Of a stretch of 64,000 bases of DNA, positions 4,611 through 61,167 are shown piece after piece. Source of the DNA: Halobellus inordinatus (GTDB lineage Archaea > Halobacteriota > Halobacteria > Halobacteriales > Haloferacaceae); assembly GCF_024464655.1 (NCBI RefSeq), contig NZ_JANHAV010000001.1:310001-374000 (forward strand), written 5' to 3'. The notes beneath the pieces are model-generated. The model had not been told where the DNA came from, did not search any database, and worked only from the letters and a program-made list of their open reading frames with translations. Both the position numbers and the translations under genes were made by a program. Every line of letters starts with the position of its first letter. The stretch's first letter is position 1.

Positions 4611-4682
4611 GCCGACCCCGTCGCTGGGCGGTATTTTCGACTGCTCGTTCTCATCGATCGACGCGAGCGTGCGGGCGCCTCA

Positions 4683-4762
4683 TAATGATTACTCTCGTCT
4701 CTTACCGCCGACCATCGCCACCGGGAGTGGCGCTCGGCGGTCAACAGTGAGAGTAATCACTA
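4683..4762. mobile_element. Family C palindromic element, copy 1 (80 bp)
   Basis: Terminal inverted repeats centred on TGATTACTCTC (left) and GAGAGTAATCA (right), with an inner hairpin ACCGCCGA / CTCGGCGGT around CCACCGGGAGTGG. TCA stands on both sides (4680-4682 and 4763-4765) as a 3 bp direct repeat. The right TCA is the stop codon, read on the minus strand, of the downstream gene. A second copy lies at 18602-18681. No coding capacity, so it is a MITE-like non-autonomous element. Confidence 0.75.
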
Positions 4763-5050
4763 TCAGACGACGCCGAAGTAGACGAACGCGCCGAGCGTGA
4801 CTGCGACCGTCAGGAGCGACCAGTTCCGCGCGGTGTCGAGACCGCCGAGCTGCAGCCGCTTCGTGAACAGCGAGAGGAAGTACGGACCGAGGGGAAGCAG
4901 CCGCCAGACGAACGCGATCTCGCGGCCGAGGCCGTACCTGAGCCCGAGCGTCAGTCCGATCGTACAGGCCGCGGCGACGACCGCGACCCGCAGATCGTCG
5001 GTAGCGAGTCCGGCGTTCGAGAGTTCAGTGCTCGTAGATTCGTCTGGCAT
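4763..5050 (-). CDS. Small membrane protein, 95 aa, unknown function
   Basis: ATG-started acidic N-terminus (about 20 residues) followed by two or three hydrophobic helices: LRVAVVAAACTIGLTLGL, VWRLLPLGPYFLSLF and LLTVAVTLGAFVYFGVV. The protein is therefore an integral membrane protein with a cytoplasmic-looking N-terminus. Its stop codon is also the right 3 bp duplication of the family C element, so the element was inserted exactly at the end of this gene. I do not recognise a named family. Confidence 0.75.
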   Translation of the reverse strand: MPDESTSTELSNAGLATDDLRVAVVAAACTIGLTLGLRYGLGREIAFVWRLLPLGPYFLSLFTKRLQLGGLDTARNWSLLTVAVTLGAFVYFGVV

Positions 5051-8856: not shown

Positions 8857-8934
8857 TAGGGATTATCGTAAGTCCGCATAGATGTCTCGCCGGACGGGAC
8901 GGCGAGACTCTCCGAACAGTTACGATAATCCCTA
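8857..8934. mobile_element. Family A palindromic element, copy 1 (78 bp)
   Basis: Ends are TAGGGATTATCGTAA and TTACGATAATCCCTA, an inverted repeat of 15 bases, with an inner hairpin CTCGCCG / CGGCGAG. TGA is duplicated on both sides (8854-8856 and 8935-8937), and the left one is the mat stop codon. The inner sequence is inverted relative to copies at 16238, 27208, 55748 and 59004. It carries no ORF. Confidence 0.85.
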
Positions 8935-9005
8935 TGAGGACTTCCACAGTCCCGACCCACGACGCGTTTCGACGTTCTGAAACCCGCTGACGCAAAATAT
9001 ACTGT

Positions 9006-10199: not shown

Positions 10200-10325
10200 A
10201 CGCGCGACACCCGGAATTGTGCGAACGTATATCGGGTTGTGCGTGAAAGTTACGCACAGTAAGATTTCCGTGTGAAAGACCGGGTTAAAATGCATTTACA
10301 TACTTCCAGACCGTACGTACGGTCG

Positions 10326-10595
10326 ATGTCAAAGACGTGCCGTCCCTCCCCGTCGTCCGCCGATCCCGAGTGGAACGTGCGGCAGGTGGTCCCGCGTAGC
10401 GAGTGGGACACCACCACCGAAGCGTGCCCGACCTGCGGTGAGCCAGTCGAACTCTGCGGTCCGCACTACCAGGTCGAACTCGACCGCGAGCGGGCGGCCG
10501 CCGCTGGCTCGAAACTGACGCGTGAGCGCCGACTACTCTCGTTCTGTGACGAGTCGTGTGCGACCTCGTGGCTCGACGACGTCGAGAGTCGGTGA
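10326..10595 (+). CDS. Small zinc-binding protein (DUF7576-like), 89 aa
   Basis: Two cysteine pairs, CPTC at residues 34-37 and CDESC at 74-78, form a likely treble-clef or zinc-ribbon site. The linker contains HYQVELDRERAAAAGSKL, and a terminal helix ATSWLDDVE follows the second pair. This arrangement recalls TRASH-like or DUF7576 haloarchaeal proteins. The ATG at 10326 was chosen over upstream starts because the preceding in-frame bases are AT-rich (CATTTACATACT) and look like a promoter. Function unknown; a nucleic-acid or metal sensor role is only a guess. Confidence 0.75.
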   Translation: MSKTCRPSPSSADPEWNVRQVVPRSEWDTTTEACPTCGEPVELCGPHYQVELDRERAAAAGSKLTRERRLLSFCDESCATSWLDDVESR

Positions 10596-10716
10596 ACCTC
10601 GGCGTCGTTCGCGCTGTGAACGCGCCGCACGACTGCTGACGGCACTCCTCCGCGATACTGCTGACGGCACGTCCCCCCCACGTCCTCCCGACGCTCTTTT
10701 CGGCTCCTCGCTTTCA

Positions 10717-10876
10717 TAGGGATTATCGTAACTGTTCGGAGAGTCTCGCCGTCCCGTCCGGCGAGACATCTATAGTAGCGTTTGCAACTGATTACACAGC
10801 CAATCGCACGACTGCGTGCGATTAGATGCGTGAAGACTTGCAAACGCTACTATATGCGGACTTACGATAGTCCCTA
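10717..10876. mobile_element. Family A palindromic element, copy 2, interrupted by a family B element
   Basis: The two ends are the standard family A termini (TAGGGATTATCGTAA at the left, TTACGATAGTCCCTA at the right), flanked by TCA at 10714-10716 and 10877-10879. The interior is split at CATCTA / TGCGG by an 80 bp palindrome. Removing that palindrome and one TA leaves 78 bp, the exact length of the other six copies. Confidence 0.85.
10773..10852. mobile_element. Family B palindromic element, copy 1 (80 bp), nested
   Basis: Perfect inverted ends TAGTAGCGTTTGCAA and TTGCAAACGCTACTA, with an inner palindrome around AATCGCACGA / TGCGTGCGATT. TA precedes (10771-10772) and follows (10853-10854) as a target duplication; TAT is also repeated, so a 3 bp duplication with a 79 bp element is possible. 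It has no ORF. A diverged copy in inverse orientation lies at 16360-16439. Confidence 0.85.
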
Positions 10877-11045
10877 TCACTTCGTCCTGTGACGCCTCGC
10901 ACCGGAACCGATTTATGACCACATTCGAAACCGCCGGACAGTACGCCGCGCCGTCGCGCGGCCCCGATCCAATGATTCACACGTCGTCGCACTCCGTCTT
11001 CGCACCGGCCCGCAAGCGATCCGGCGGTCGCCGCCCACGACAGCC

Positions 11046-11504
11046 GTGACGCGGGTCTGCTTCGTCGGCTCGCCGGACGTCGACGTCCAGTACGAACTGC
11101 TCTCCCGGGAGACGGCTCGCGAGGCGCTCTCGACGTACGAGCGCTACGCCCCCTTCGAGAACTCGCTGGCCGTCGATACGGTGAGCCTCGGCGCCGCGGT
11201 GTCGCTGTGCAACGACCTGAACTGGTATCTCGTCCGGTTCGTCGACCTCGCGGTCGTCCGTGAGCCGAGTGTTTCGAGCGACGAGTGGCTAAGTCGGTCG
11301 CTGGCGGCGGCGGTCCGCGACGGCGACGTCCGGCCCGAAGACACCGGCGAGCGGGTGGCCATCTACGGCGTCGAGGACGGCCGTCTCGTCGAACCGATGT
11401 ACGTCACCCGCCGACCGGACGGCACCCTCCCGTCCTACGACCTCCGGCCAGTCTCGGAGACGGTCGTCGTCCGCGTGACCGACGACGAGTTCGAGGACGG
11501 GTGA
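11046..11504 (+). CDS. Haloarchaeal conserved hypothetical protein (DUF5804-like), 152 aa
   Basis: GTG start at 11046. The sequence opens MTRVCFVGSPDVDVQYELLS and continues with acidic helices, including AREALSTYERYAPFE, and a C-terminal beta-rich part (VAIYGVEDGRLVEPMYVTRR, VVVRVTDDEFEDG). This matches my memory of the DUF5804 group found across haloarchaea. No catalytic motif is visible. The protein is soluble and probably cytosolic, and its role is unknown. It is followed 134 bases later by a PRC-barrel gene on the same strand. Confidence 0.75.
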   Translation: MTRVCFVGSPDVDVQYELLSRETAREALSTYERYAPFENSLAVDTVSLGAAVSLCNDLNWYLVRFVDLAVVREPSVSSDEWLSRSLAAAVRDGDVRPEDTGERVAIYGVEDGRLVEPMYVTRRPDGTLPSYDLRPVSETVVVRVTDDEFEDG

Positions 11505-16237: not shown

Positions 16238-16315
16238 TAGGGACTATCGTCACTGTTCGGAGATTCTCGCCGTACCGTCCGGCGAGATATGTATGAGGAC
16301 CTACGATCGTTCCTA
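16238..16315. mobile_element. Family A palindromic element, copy 3 (78 bp)
   Basis: Ends TAGGGACTATCGTCA and a diverged right end ACGATCGTTCCTA. TAA is duplicated (16235-16237 and 16316-16318); the left TAA is the rnp4 stop codon. This is the most diverged copy in the window, which suggests an older insertion. Confidence 0.8.
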
Positions 16316-16359: not shown

Positions 16360-16439
16360 TAGTAGCATTTACAAGTCTTCACTCACCCGATCAGACGCTG
16401 TCGTGCGATCGGGTGCGCAATCAGTTGCAACTGCTACGA
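16360..16439. mobile_element. Family B palindromic element, copy 2 (80 bp, diverged)
   Basis: Left end TAGTAGCATTTACAAG, right end GTTGCAACTGCTACGA, with the inner palindrome CGATC...GTCGTGCGATCGGG. Its sequence aligns with the reverse complement of copy 1 over the whole 80 bp. Flanks show an 8 bp direct repeat CGATAGTA (16357-16364 and 16437-16444) that overlaps the ends, so the exact boundaries are uncertain. It lies between family A copy 3 and the yhbY promoter. Confidence 0.65.
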
Positions 16440-18514: not shown

Positions 18515-18601
18515 ACTTCTGTATATTCTCCGGGGAGCGCAAAGTAGCCTACGGGTAGGCCGATCGGGAACGTGTCAGATTCGGGTGTCGCGACCGACTC
18601 A

Positions 18602-18681
18602 TACTGATTACTCTCGTCTCTTACCGCCGACCACCGCCACCGGGAGTGGCGCTCGGCGGTACACAGTGAGAGTACTTCCTC
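18602..18681. mobile_element. Family C palindromic element, copy 2 (80 bp)
   Basis: Same layout and length as copy 1 (4683-4762): left end TACTGATTACTCTCGTC, right end AGTGAGAGTACTTCCTC, with the ACCGCCGA / CTCGGCGGT inner hairpin. TCA flanks both sides (18599-18601 and 18682-18684), and the right TCA is the stop codon of the peroxiredoxin gene. The right terminus has decayed more than the left. Confidence 0.75.
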
Positions 18682-19161
18682 TCAGGCGCTCGCTTCTTCG
18701 GCGGCGGCGGCGACCTCGTCGTAGTCGGGTTCGGCGCCGGGGTCGTCGCTCACCCAGGCGTAGGTGACTGACCCGTCTTCGTCGACGACGAAGACCGCGC
18801 GCTTTGCGACGTTGTAGACGCCGAGGTCCGCGAAGTCCATCGAGACGTCGTAGGCGTCGATGATCTCGCGGTTGGTGTCGCTGAGGAGCGCGAAGTTCAG
18901 TTCGTTCTGCCGGCGGAACTCGTTGAGCGTGAACGGCGTGTCGATGCTGATGCCGTACACTTCGGCGCCGACGTCCTCGAAGTTGGCCATCTGATCGCGG
19001 AACGTACACATCTCGGTCGTACAGGTGCTCGTGAACGACGCGGGGAAGAACGCGAGCACGAGCGGCCCCTCCGAGAGTTCTTCTGAGAGGGTGAACGAGC
19101 CGATGTCGCCGTCTGCGAGCGGTGCGGTGAAGTCAGGGGCAGTATCGCCGACTGAAACCAT
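18682..19161 (-). CDS. Thiol peroxiredoxin (AhpC/TSA, BCP-like), 159 aa
   Basis: Thioredoxin-fold peroxidase. FFPASFTSTCTTEMCTF carries the peroxidatic Cys47 (T-x-x-C motif) and Cys52, a likely resolving cysteine five residues later as in BCP-type enzymes. VYGISIDTPFTLNEFRRQN and VFVVDEDGSVTYAWV complete the fold. It reduces peroxides in the cytosol. The ATG at 19161 was chosen because the upstream in-frame sequence is basic and unlike the family. It is divergent from a small winged-helix gene at 19333, a possible regulator. Confidence 0.92.
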   Translation of the reverse strand: MVSVGDTAPDFTAPLADGDIGSFTLSEELSEGPLVLAFFPASFTSTCTTEMCTFRDQMANFEDVGAEVYGISIDTPFTLNEFRRQNELNFALLSDTNREIIDAYDVSMDFADLGVYNVAKRAVFVVDEDGSVTYAWVSDDPGAEPDYDEVAAAAEEASA

Positions 19162-26528: not shown

Positions 26529-26955
26529 ACTGTCGGACAGAACGATGTGAAGCGTATCGGCACCCCGCGGGGGCCAACACGATTCACGGACTTCTGTCCG
26601 ACAGACTCAGGATGCTCGATCCCGGCGACGACGTCAGCCGTACAACTGATAGGGATTATCGTACGTCTCCATAGATTTCTCGCCGGACGATACGGCGAGA
26701 ATCTCCGAACAGTTACGAGAATCCCTATGAGACGGCCACAGCCCGTCGCGTCTTCGAGCCCGACGTCGCCGTCACCGCTGAGCGGTTCGTACGGATCTAC
26801 CGGGCGCTCGCCCTCGGAGCGGATGAGAGGTGCAATTATGATGCTGCGGCCAGTATATTAGCTGAGCGCCCATCTGTGGACGTGAAACGCCGTTCTTTAC
26901 CCGGGTGTGGGAGGCAAAAAGCCTATAATTACGACTGGGTTAGGTGCTGGTAGCA
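26529..26955. other. Intergenic with a family A element and the tatA promoter region
   Basis: The 427 base gap contains family A copy 4 (26650-26727). Right of it, between about 26840 and 26940, lies an AT-richer block (CAGTATATTAGCTGAG and AAAAGCCTATAATTACGACT), the likely promoter of tatA. Plus-strand frames crossing the region are arginine- and serine-rich and not protein-like. Confidence 0.55.
26650..26727. mobile_element. Family A palindromic element, copy 4 (78 bp)
   Basis: Ends TAGGGATTATCGTAC and TTACGAGAATCCCTA, flanked by TGA at 26647-26649 and 26728-26730. This copy is not at a stop codon of a recognised gene. Its inner sequence is inverted relative to copy 5, and together they bracket tatA. 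Confidence 0.85.
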
Positions 26956-27207: not shown

Positions 27208-27285
27208 TAGGGATTATCGTAACTGTTCAGAGATTCTCGCCGTACCGTCCGGCGAGAAATCTATGCGGACTTACGATAAGCCCTA
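27208..27285. mobile_element. Family A palindromic element, copy 5 (78 bp)
   Basis: Ends TAGGGATTATCGTAA and TTACGATAAGCCCTA, flanked by TGA at 27205-27207 (the tatA stop codon) and 27286-27288. Inverted relative to copy 4. Confidence 0.85.
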
Positions 27286-28953: not shown

Positions 28954-29027
28954 GGACGTGTGGCCCAGTGGACTAAGGCGAGGGGTTCCTAACCCCTAGA
29001 GCGCGGGTTCGAATCCCGTCACGTCCG
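28954..29027 (+). tRNA. tRNA-Arg (anticodon CCT)
   Basis: Acceptor stem GGACGTG pairs with CACGTCC and is followed by the discriminator G. D-stem GCC/GGC, anticodon stem AGGGG/CCCCT with loop TTCCTAA (anticodon CCT, reading AGG), and T-arm GCGGG-TTCGAAT-CCCGT. No intron and no encoded CCA. It begins about 25 bases downstream of the tnpB element and its 3' end is the start of a tandem repeat array. Confidence 0.96.
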
Positions 29028-29407
29028 CTCACTTCGGTCACTCCTGTGACGACCGCCCGCTCGCTGCCGCTCGCGGGAGTCCCGTCACGTCCGTTTCCCG
29101 CCGAGCGACAGCGAGGCGTGAAAACGACGCTGAGGAATTCGAATCGGGGAAGTCGCGCGCAGCGGAGCAAGCACGTCCGACCGTGGTTCGAATCCCGTCA
29201 CGTCCGCTCACTTCGTTCACCCCCGTGAGGACCGCCCGCTCGCAACCGCTCACGGGAGTCCCGTCACGTCCGCTCACGTCGCGCACTCCCGTGACGACCG
29301 CCCGCTCGCTACCGCTCGCGGGAGTCCCGTCACGTCCGCTCACGTCGCGCACTCCCGTGACGACCGCCCGCTCGCTACCGCTCGCGGGAGTCCTGTCACG
29401 TCCGCTT
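29015..29407. repeat. 66 bp tandem array derived from the tRNA-Arg 3' end
   Basis: Each unit begins with CCCGTCACGTCCG, the last 13 bases of the tRNA. Full 66 bp units start at 29015, 29194, 29260 and 29326; the last two are identical. Partial units start at 29081 and 29392, the latter running into CTTTTT. A longer 31 base copy of the tRNA end, beginning GGTTCGAATCCCGTCACG, occurs at 29185-29215 and matches 29006-29036. Each unit also contains arms ACTCCCG / CGGGAGT. This also covers the gap between the tRNA and the next gene. Confidence 0.85.
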
Positions 29408-29460
29408 TTTACCGAGGGGACGTTGCTACGACGAAGTGGCGGGTCGCGTTCGCCCGCGAC

Positions 29461-55629: not shown

Positions 55630-55930
55630 AGGGGCGCTTTCGGCATTCCCGAGTAAAAGCTTCGGCATTGTGTCCGTCGCGTGTACCCGGATTCCGCCAT
55701 TTACGTTCGCTAACGCCTCGTCTCCTTGCCGACCGCCCCTCGACTGATAGGGATTATCGTAACTGTTTGGAGATTCTCGCCGTACCGTCCGGCGAGAAAT
55801 CTATGCGGACTTACGATAGTCCCTATGATCATCCTTCCGCCGACCGTCTCGGCGGATCGTCGGTTTCTCCGCGACGGGTTCCGGATCGGACGCAAGACCT
55901 ATAGTGTGTTATGTCATACCACAGGCTACG
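55630..55930. other. Divergent region between polB and a small gene
   Basis: About 300 bases that include family A copy 6 (55748-55825). TATAGTGTGTTATG at 55900-55913 lies about 20-30 bases before the next gene and may be its promoter. The polB promoter was not identified with certainty; AGTAAAAGCTT at 55652-55662 is the AT-richest part. Confidence 0.5.
55748..55825. mobile_element. Family A palindromic element, copy 6 (78 bp)
   Basis: Ends TAGGGATTATCGTAA and TTACGATAGTCCCTA, flanked by TGA at 55745-55747 and 55826-55828. It sits in the divergent polB intergenic region, not at a stop codon. Confidence 0.85.
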
Positions 55931-59003: not shown

Positions 59004-59081
59004 TAGGGATTATCGTAACTGTTCGGAGGTTCCCGCCGTACCGTCCGGCGAGAAATCTATGCGGACTTACGATCATCCCTA
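59004..59081. mobile_element. Family A palindromic element, copy 7 (78 bp)
   Basis: Ends TAGGGATTATCGTAA and TTACGATCATCCCTA. Left flank TGA (59001-59003) is the stop codon of the winged-helix gene. The right flank is CGA, one base off a perfect TGA duplication, so this copy may be somewhat older. Confidence 0.8.
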
Positions 59082-59617: not shown

Positions 59618-61167
59618 CACGGGTGATCCACACCGGCGACACCCACCTCGGGTACCAGCAGTACCACTCCTCGGCGCGGCGCAAGGACTTCCTCGACGCG
59701 TTCGAGCAGGTGATCGACGACGCCGTCGAGATGGGCGTCGACGCCGTCGTCCACGCCGGCGATCTGTTCCACGACCGCCGCCCGGAACTCCGGGACCTCC
59801 TCGGAACGATTCGCATTCTCAGGCGGCTCGACGACGCCGAGATCCCGTTTCTCGCGGTCGTCGGGAATCACGAGTCCACGCGCGGCGGACAGTGGCTCGA
59901 CCTCTTCGAGAACCTGGGCCTGGCGGAGCGACTCGGAGCGGCCCCGCGAGTCGTCGAGGATACCGCCTTCTACGGTCTCGACCACGTGCCCGAGTCGCGA
60001 CGGGAGGAACTCGATTACGACTTCGAGCCACACGACGCCGCCTCCGCCGCGCTCGTGAGCCACGGGCTGTTCACGCCCTTTGCCCACGCCAACTGGGACA
60101 CCGAGATGGTCCTCGACCGCTCGAACGTCGACTTCGACGTGGTCCTCCTCGGCGACAACCACGCGCCGGGGACCGAGACCGTCGACGACGCGTGGGTCAC
60201 CTACTGCGGATCGACCGAGCGCGCGAGCGCCGCCGAGGAGGACGCGCGCGGGTACAACCTCGTGACGTTCGACGACGCGGTCGACATCCGGCGACGCACG
60301 CTCGACACCCGCCCGTTCGTCTTCGTCAGCGTGGAGTTGGCCGCGGGCGAGGGACCGGGGCGCGTTCGCGAGCAACTCCGTCAGCGCGAGGTCGCAGACG
60401 CGGTCGTCGTCGTGGAGGTGACCGGCGACGGCGAGCCCGTGACGCCCGCGGCGATCGAGGAGTCTCTCACGGAGCGCGGCGCGCTCATCGCGCGCGTCAC
60501 GGACCGCCGCGAGCACGAGACCGACGCGGAGATCGACGTCTCCTTCGCCGACCCCGACGCCGCCGTCGACGAACGCGTTCGCGACCTGGGACTCTCGACA
60601 GCCGCGCTCGACGTCGACGAGACGATCCGCGCGAGTGAGACGCCGGACTCGAACGTCCGCGACGCGGTGAAGTCCCGCATCTCCGACCTCCTGGAGGACG
60701 GAGCGGACGCCGCGTTCGCTGCCGCTCCGCGAGGGGACGACGAATCTGGTGCAGAGAGCTCTGGAAGGGACGGAGCTGGGACGACCGAGTCCGGTGCAGA
60801 CGGCGGTTCCGAGACGGATGACGCCGATGTTACCGGTCCAACAGACGGCGCTGCCGACGTCACCGACGCGACGGACGGTGTTTCCGACGTCGCCGCCGCG
60901 GATGCCGCCGGATCTGCGACTGGTGACGCCGCCGACCAGGCCGCTCCGCCCGCACTCGACGATTCTAGCGACGAAACCTCTAGCGACGAAACCTCTAGCG
61001 ACGAAACCTCTAGCGACGAAACCTCTAGCGACGAAACCTCTAGCGACGAAACCTCTAGCGACGAAACCTCTAGCGACGAAACCTCTAGCGACGAGGAGGC
61101 GACAGACGACGACTCGGAGGAGACTGCGACGCCGAGCGACACTCAAGTAACGATGGAGGATTTCTAG
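59614..61167 (+). CDS. mre11: DNA double-strand break repair nuclease Mre11
   Basis: Metallophosphoesterase nuclease: GDTHLGYQQYHSSARRKDF at residues 7-25, HAGDLFHDRRPE near 47-58, VVGNHESTRGG near 82-92, and the capping domain follows. It trims DNA ends with Rad50. Beyond about residue 370 a disordered acidic tail appears, including eight SSDET repeats (about residues 451-490), before the C-terminal TQVTMEDF. The stop TAG at 61165-61167 is followed directly by the rad50 ATG at 61168, so both are cotranslated. Confidence 0.96.
   Translation: MTRVIHTGDTHLGYQQYHSSARRKDFLDAFEQVIDDAVEMGVDAVVHAGDLFHDRRPELRDLLGTIRILRRLDDAEIPFLAVVGNHESTRGGQWLDLFENLGLAERLGAAPRVVEDTAFYGLDHVPESRREELDYDFEPHDAASAALVSHGLFTPFAHANWDTEMVLDRSNVDFDVVLLGDNHAPGTETVDDAWVTYCGSTERASAAEEDARGYNLVTFDDAVDIRRRTLDTRPFVFVSVELAAGEGPGRVREQLRQREVADAVVVVEVTGDGEPVTPAAIEESLTERGALIARVTDRREHETDAEIDVSFADPDAAVDERVRDLGLSTAALDVDETIRASETPDSNVRDAVKSRISDLLEDGADAAFAAAPRGDDESGAESSGRDGAGTTESGADGGSETDDADVTGPTDGAADVTDATDGVSDVAAADAAGSATGDAADQAAPPALDDSSDETSSDETSSDETSSDETSSDETSSDETSSDETSSDETSSDEEATDDDSEETATPSDTQVTMEDF
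60964..61095 (+). repeat. 15 bp tandem repeat in mre11 (8 perfect units plus a partial)
   Basis: TCTAGCGACGAAACC repeated eight times without a mismatch (60964-61083), then TCTAGCGACGAG. It encodes (SSDET)8-SSDEE in the disordered part of Mre11. Each unit contains one CTAG tetranucleotide. Perfect copies indicate recent expansion. Confidence 0.95.

Follow-up and report, generated by a model that had tools for sequence, protein, structure and literature searches.

Two MITE families of Halobellus inordinatus nest in each other at fixed target-motif matches

Introduction

Nesting in itself is ordinary in haloarchaea, since 192 cases of a mobile element within a mobile element, many of them at preferred sites, have been described in Haloquadratum walsbyi (PMC3119063). 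In that species, the HqIRS MITEs are short and non-coding, carry TIRs and a target duplication of fixed length, occur in tens of copies and insert into other mobile elements, and a MITE with a broken partner transposase was reported to be mobile (PMC3119063). SMR-A/B of the same species are approximately 80-110 bp long with inverted repeats and prefer particular sites inside mobile elements, but they show no target duplication (PMC3119063). As regards enzymes that duplicate TA, a preference of IS630 for TA within CTAG is given in the title of a reference cited in PMC2170065, and ISY100 moves by cut and paste with duplication of TA (PMC2170065).

Here, we describe two element families, A and B, in a window of 64,000 nucleotides, which is the whole stretch of DNA that was analyzed (310001-374000 of contig 11 in the 3.4 Mb, 23-contig genome of Halobellus inordinatus). 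Both families have the character of MITEs, being short and without a transposase, with TIRs, a fixed target duplication and many dispersed copies. Their likeness to HqIRS is one of description, and while no MITE was struck by another element in the Hqr. walsbyi count (PMC3119063), here two MITE families strike each other. Despite their similar length, inverted repeats and site preference inside mobile elements, A and B are not SMRs, as both leave target duplications. Assignment to PATE or IS605-derived elements, which have neither TIRs nor a target duplication, was likewise ruled out by the perfect TIRs and the duplications.

Results

Anatomy of the nested locus

Read directly along the strand, a family A element at 10717-10876 is interrupted by a family B element at 10773-10852, and the nest lies between genes at 10272-10595 and 11046-11504. 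The order on the forward strand is TCA, TAGGGATTATCGTAACTGTTCGGAGAGTCTCGCCGTCCCGTCCGGCGAGACATC, TA, TAGTAGCGTTTGCAA to TTGCAAACGCTACTA, TA, TGCGGACTTACGATAGTCCCTA and TCA. The outer TCA trinucleotides (10714-10716 and 10877-10879) are the target duplication of A, whose left part covers 56 bp (10717-10772), including the TA that was later duplicated by B, and whose right part occupies 10855-10876. The B duplication is formed by TA at 10771-10772, positions 55-56 of A in the target CTAT, and by TA at 10853-10854. A duplication of either TA or TAT had been proposed, and only TA agrees with the flanks, because TATG on the right is met by CTA on the left. The B element itself is 80 bp long and is a candidate IS630-type MITE, bounded by TAGTAGCGTTTGCAA and TTGCAAACGCTACTA. 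Its termini are exact inverted copies over 15 of 15 bases, as the earlier note had stated, whereas the inserted palindrome as a whole is imperfect, with arm complementarity of 83% and a DNA fold z of -8.3. Matches to the TAGTAGCGTTTGCAA end number four in the window, where approximately 0.25 would be expected by chance.

When 82 bp (B and one TA) were excised, a 78-bp A element was restored, which is the length of each of the six further A copies in the window (8857-8934, 16238-16315, 26650-26727, 27208-27285, 55748-55825 and 59004-59081). The restored element differs at one position of 78 from the reverse complement of 8857-8934, an uninterrupted copy on the reverse strand that serves as the empty-site reference, and the region 10717-10772 matches 8878-8937, inverted, at 100% over 60 nt. 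The nesting of B in A proposed earlier is thus borne out by the TIRs, the TA and TCA duplications and the restored 78-bp element. This inverted copy, 1.8 kb away, is also the nearest to the focal A among approximately 78 copies, and the near-identity of the two could stem from either a local hop or gene conversion.

Copies in the window, the genome and relatives

Based on searches together with retrieved stretches, approximately 86 elements of family A and 48 of family B were counted in the host genome. Within the window, the A copy at 16238-16315 (forward strand) has a TAA duplication, and a second, diverged B copy (81%) lies at 16360-16439 on the same strand. Family A is plentiful in the host genome only and sparse in a few relatives, and it was not found in public plasmids. 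Family B is spread throughout the genus; it also occurs at exactly 80 bp on plasmids of Haloferax mediterranei and Halorubrum. On the Halobellus limi plasmid NZ_CP031312, the coordinates of the B copies match those in the congener G003. In a sister genus, B takes a 107-bp form with identical ends and a different interior (L202, L222 and L223; genomes G017 and G044), suggesting that a single end-recognizing transposase served several MITE interiors.

Several other repeats were seen alongside these families. A 213-bp B element (L101, G000:C18:112984-113196, locus positions 485-697) contains a third, unrelated insert of approximately 130 bp with GTTTCAGTGATCACTC-like inverted ends. At L025 (G000:C18:176866-177009), the right end of B is repeated with its flank (TTGCAAACGCTACTATAGGATTCTCACGC) next to a B copy, which adds a third, unpaired B end. 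In the window, a pair of palindromic repeats (4671-4769 and 18590-18688), 88% identical and ending near CATAATGATTACTCTC and GAGAGTAATCACTATCAG, is probably what the earlier note called family C. Tandem units of 66 bp, 83-87% alike, lie in intergenic-looking DNA at 29011-29416, and identical 15-bp units (TCTAGCGACGAAACC) form a run at 60964-61098, apparently inside coding sequence.

Target rules of the two families

Of the 48 B copies, 39 have TA at both ends, and none shows a longer duplication. The CTA..TAG setting is found for 24 of the 48, with C before the element at a frequency of 0.79 and G after it at 0.79. The target of B is therefore CTAG, with TA duplicated. Among the A copies, 72 of 86 have an exact 3-bp duplication, which takes the form TNA in 67, mainly as TCA or TGA within C-TNA-G. 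The two target rules are clearly different, in line with the earlier proposal that a TA duplication in B would suit an IS630/Tc1-like transposase and depart from the TNA rule of A.

We derived target matrices from the dispersed copies, the A matrix including nested sites, and scored each family as a target for the other. ACTGAT is by far the top A target in B, with 10.2 bits against a window 99.9th percentile of 6.9. The CTATG of A scores 4.0-4.7 bits as a B site, between the 99th (1.7) and 99.9th (5.8) percentiles, and it belongs to the small number of good B sites in A without being the sole best one, as the outer edge of A and the focal GATAGT score similarly or higher.

Reciprocal nesting at fixed positions

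Nesting also occurs the other way around. Five A elements lie inside B in the host genome (C16:311130, C16:442172, C21:61171, the C19:130751 region and C1:42630), all at one ACTGA/T site covering B positions 18-20. Four of these are clean 161-bp composites with a TGA duplication, and the C1 copy sits in a diverged B. B inside A was found three times in two species, in the focal copy, at C19:54766 (L033) and at C1:1639429-1639588 of species G009 (L510), each time in the same TA of TCTATG, which holds the single CTATG of A. Nesting is thus reciprocal, and each family sits where the other offers the best match, or nearly the best, to its target motif. The fixed positions follow from target choice, as indicated by the motif scores.

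Under uniform insertion over the whole genome, 0.10 A-in-B cases would be expected against the five seen (P = 6.6e-8); if approximately 14% of the genome is open, the assumed intergenic share, the expectation rises to 0.69 (P = 7.5e-4). The two B-in-A events in the host genome show no clear excess over the 14%-open expectation (P = 0.15).

The recurrence of five A-in-B cases at one position and three B-in-A cases at another might also be expected if a single composite element had spread via its outer ends. We consider this very improbable, as the shared positions are explained by the motif scores and nests of each class are seen in both relative orientations, A-in-B being found three times one way and twice the other. 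Moreover, every nested A has its closest match among the un-nested copies and not among the other nested ones, and in the A-in-B set one of the B shells is from a different subfamily (16-18 differences). Judged by these sequence relationships, the five A-in-B cases are separate, independent events, and composite transposition was rejected in view of the distinct ancestry of the nested copies. Nor does the interrupted focal copy recur as a repeat: in the only other B-in-A of the host genome, the two elements are oriented the other way relative to each other, and the flanks differ.

Order of insertion and history of the locus

At the focal locus, the interrupted duplications make the order secure, with A first and B second. 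The earlier note had taken this order as the relative age of A and B; it holds for this copy and fails for the families, since A lies inside B five times. Only the focal copy can be ordered, and the five cases indicate that A and B were mobile over overlapping periods.

Eleven congeners and one neighboring genus have neither A nor B in the intergenic DNA that precedes the DUF5804 gene. An alignment with sister regions had been suggested earlier as a means of finding the uninterrupted A. The congeners are without both elements, and their intergenic sequences have diverged too far for a base-exact empty site to be located at this locus. Upstream of the DUF5804 gene, a block at 10900-10925 of the window, ACCG(C/G)AACCGATTTAT, is conserved throughout the genus, unlike the remaining intergenic DNA, and it is probably the promoter of that gene.

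The strong hairpin potential of the 160-bp unit and its place upstream of this promoter-like block would also suit a conserved element of this locus, either a functional RNA or a palindrome with a regulatory role, with no record of transposition. We regard this as extremely improbable, because a search of Rfam gave no match, the unit is missing from every orthologous intergenic region examined, and the dispersed copies carry target duplications. In particular, no relative had the 160 bp as an ancestral unit at this locus.

Comparison of family B with IS630 elements

To compare the ends of B with those of known transposons, we gathered haloarchaeal IS630-type transposase genes with HTH and DDE_3 domains, 80 of them with organism names. 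Both ends were located for 59 copies, and these read TATAGTA, followed mostly by A or G, and (C)CGTTAGAA or a close variant; 37 of the 59 have C on both sides, that is, TA duplicated in CTAG. The B end stands in the same setting, C followed by TATAGTAGCGTTTGCAA, and its first seven bases, TATAGTA, are common to the 59 IS630 copies. B thus resembles the IS630/Tc1-mariner elements of haloarchaea in the outer TATAGTA, the TA duplication and the CTAG preference, but it lacks a transposase gene, measures 80 bp where these are approximately 1.05 kb long, and diverges beyond TATAGTA, where its inner TIR reads CGTTTGCAA compared with (C)CGTTAGAA in IS630.

An autonomous parent of B was also sought. 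None with the full 15-bp end was found in the host genome, 99 relatives, four haloarchaeal plasmids and the 80 IS630 loci, and no parent of B appeared as a long end pair at IS630 loci of the genus or of B-bearing neighbors. The IS with TAGTAGCG ends for which the earlier note had suggested a search was not found, and related IS630s share the outermost bases only. At least 120 single 15-mer matches to the B end in viral contigs were read as chance and left out, and the isolated match TAGTAACCGTTGCAA at L486 was discounted for the same reason. At L232 (G000:C1:102000-104700, locus positions approximately 60-1570), a CRISPR-like array (GTTTCAGACGGACCCCTTGTGGGGTCGAAG) adjoins an IS630 remnant, and ends of this remnant were not found at that locus.

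B is thus a putative member of the IS630 family, given that no autonomous element with full B ends was found. In addition, a search for a DDE_3 transposase had no match in genomes G007 and G009, which hold many B copies. Both results would fit a transposase of another family with a 2-bp TA duplication, such as an IS5-type enzyme, with the likeness to IS630 ends arising by convergence, and the TNA rule of A suggests that IS5-type enzymes may exist in the lineage. We consider such a mover unlikely, as the outer TATAGTA after C, the TA duplication and the CTAG preference are all common to B and 59 complete haloarchaeal IS630 copies, and as the Haloquadratum MITE offers a precedent with a broken partner transposase (PMC3119063). 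Mobilization of B in trans by an IS630-type enzyme would be the best explanation, considering the shared ends and setting together with the published behavior of IS630 and ISY100 (PMC2170065).

A partner for family A

IS5-type elements duplicate 3 bp of the form TNA, and the 67 of 86 A copies with a TNA duplication agree with them in this respect. A transposase with A-type ends (TAGGGATTATCGTAA) was not found at the A-like sites read in G021 and G033, which held only short gene-less relatives; the candidate A parents in these two genomes proved to be further short elements of this kind. In G033, which belongs to another genus, gene-less elements of approximately 100 bp with A-like ends (TAGGGATTATCGTAG) were seen at L511 and L512.

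Discussion

We propose, with high confidence, that MITE A came first, that B was then mobilized in trans by an IS630/Tc1-mariner-type transposase into a TA of A, and that the two families land in each other at fixed sites. At the focal locus, the 78-bp A would have inserted at TCA between the two neighboring genes, duplicating TCA. Later, the transposase would have acted on the ends of the 80-bp B and, probably by cut and paste, placed it into the TA of ATCTATG within A, duplicating TA. The site would not be random, as CTATG is an internal A match to the CTAG-like target motif of B. B in turn bears the best match to the A target motif, ACTGAT, so each family may repeatedly land in the other at a fixed position.

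Mutual nesting of MITEs at fixed positions adds modestly to what is known of nesting among haloarchaeal elements. It might be supposed that the two unrelated families were selected as mutual landing pads, self-limiting and sparing the genome, in which case a share of insertions would be diverted from genes into already inert mobile DNA. We give this little credence, because B carries ACTGAT also in species where A was not detected.

For both families, a base-exact and clean empty site was obtained, and the target rules are fixed as C-TNA-G for A and CTAG with TA duplication for B. A single nest is unsuitable for ordering the ages of two families, and the counts show that matches to a target motif alone can yield recurrent nesting at one position.
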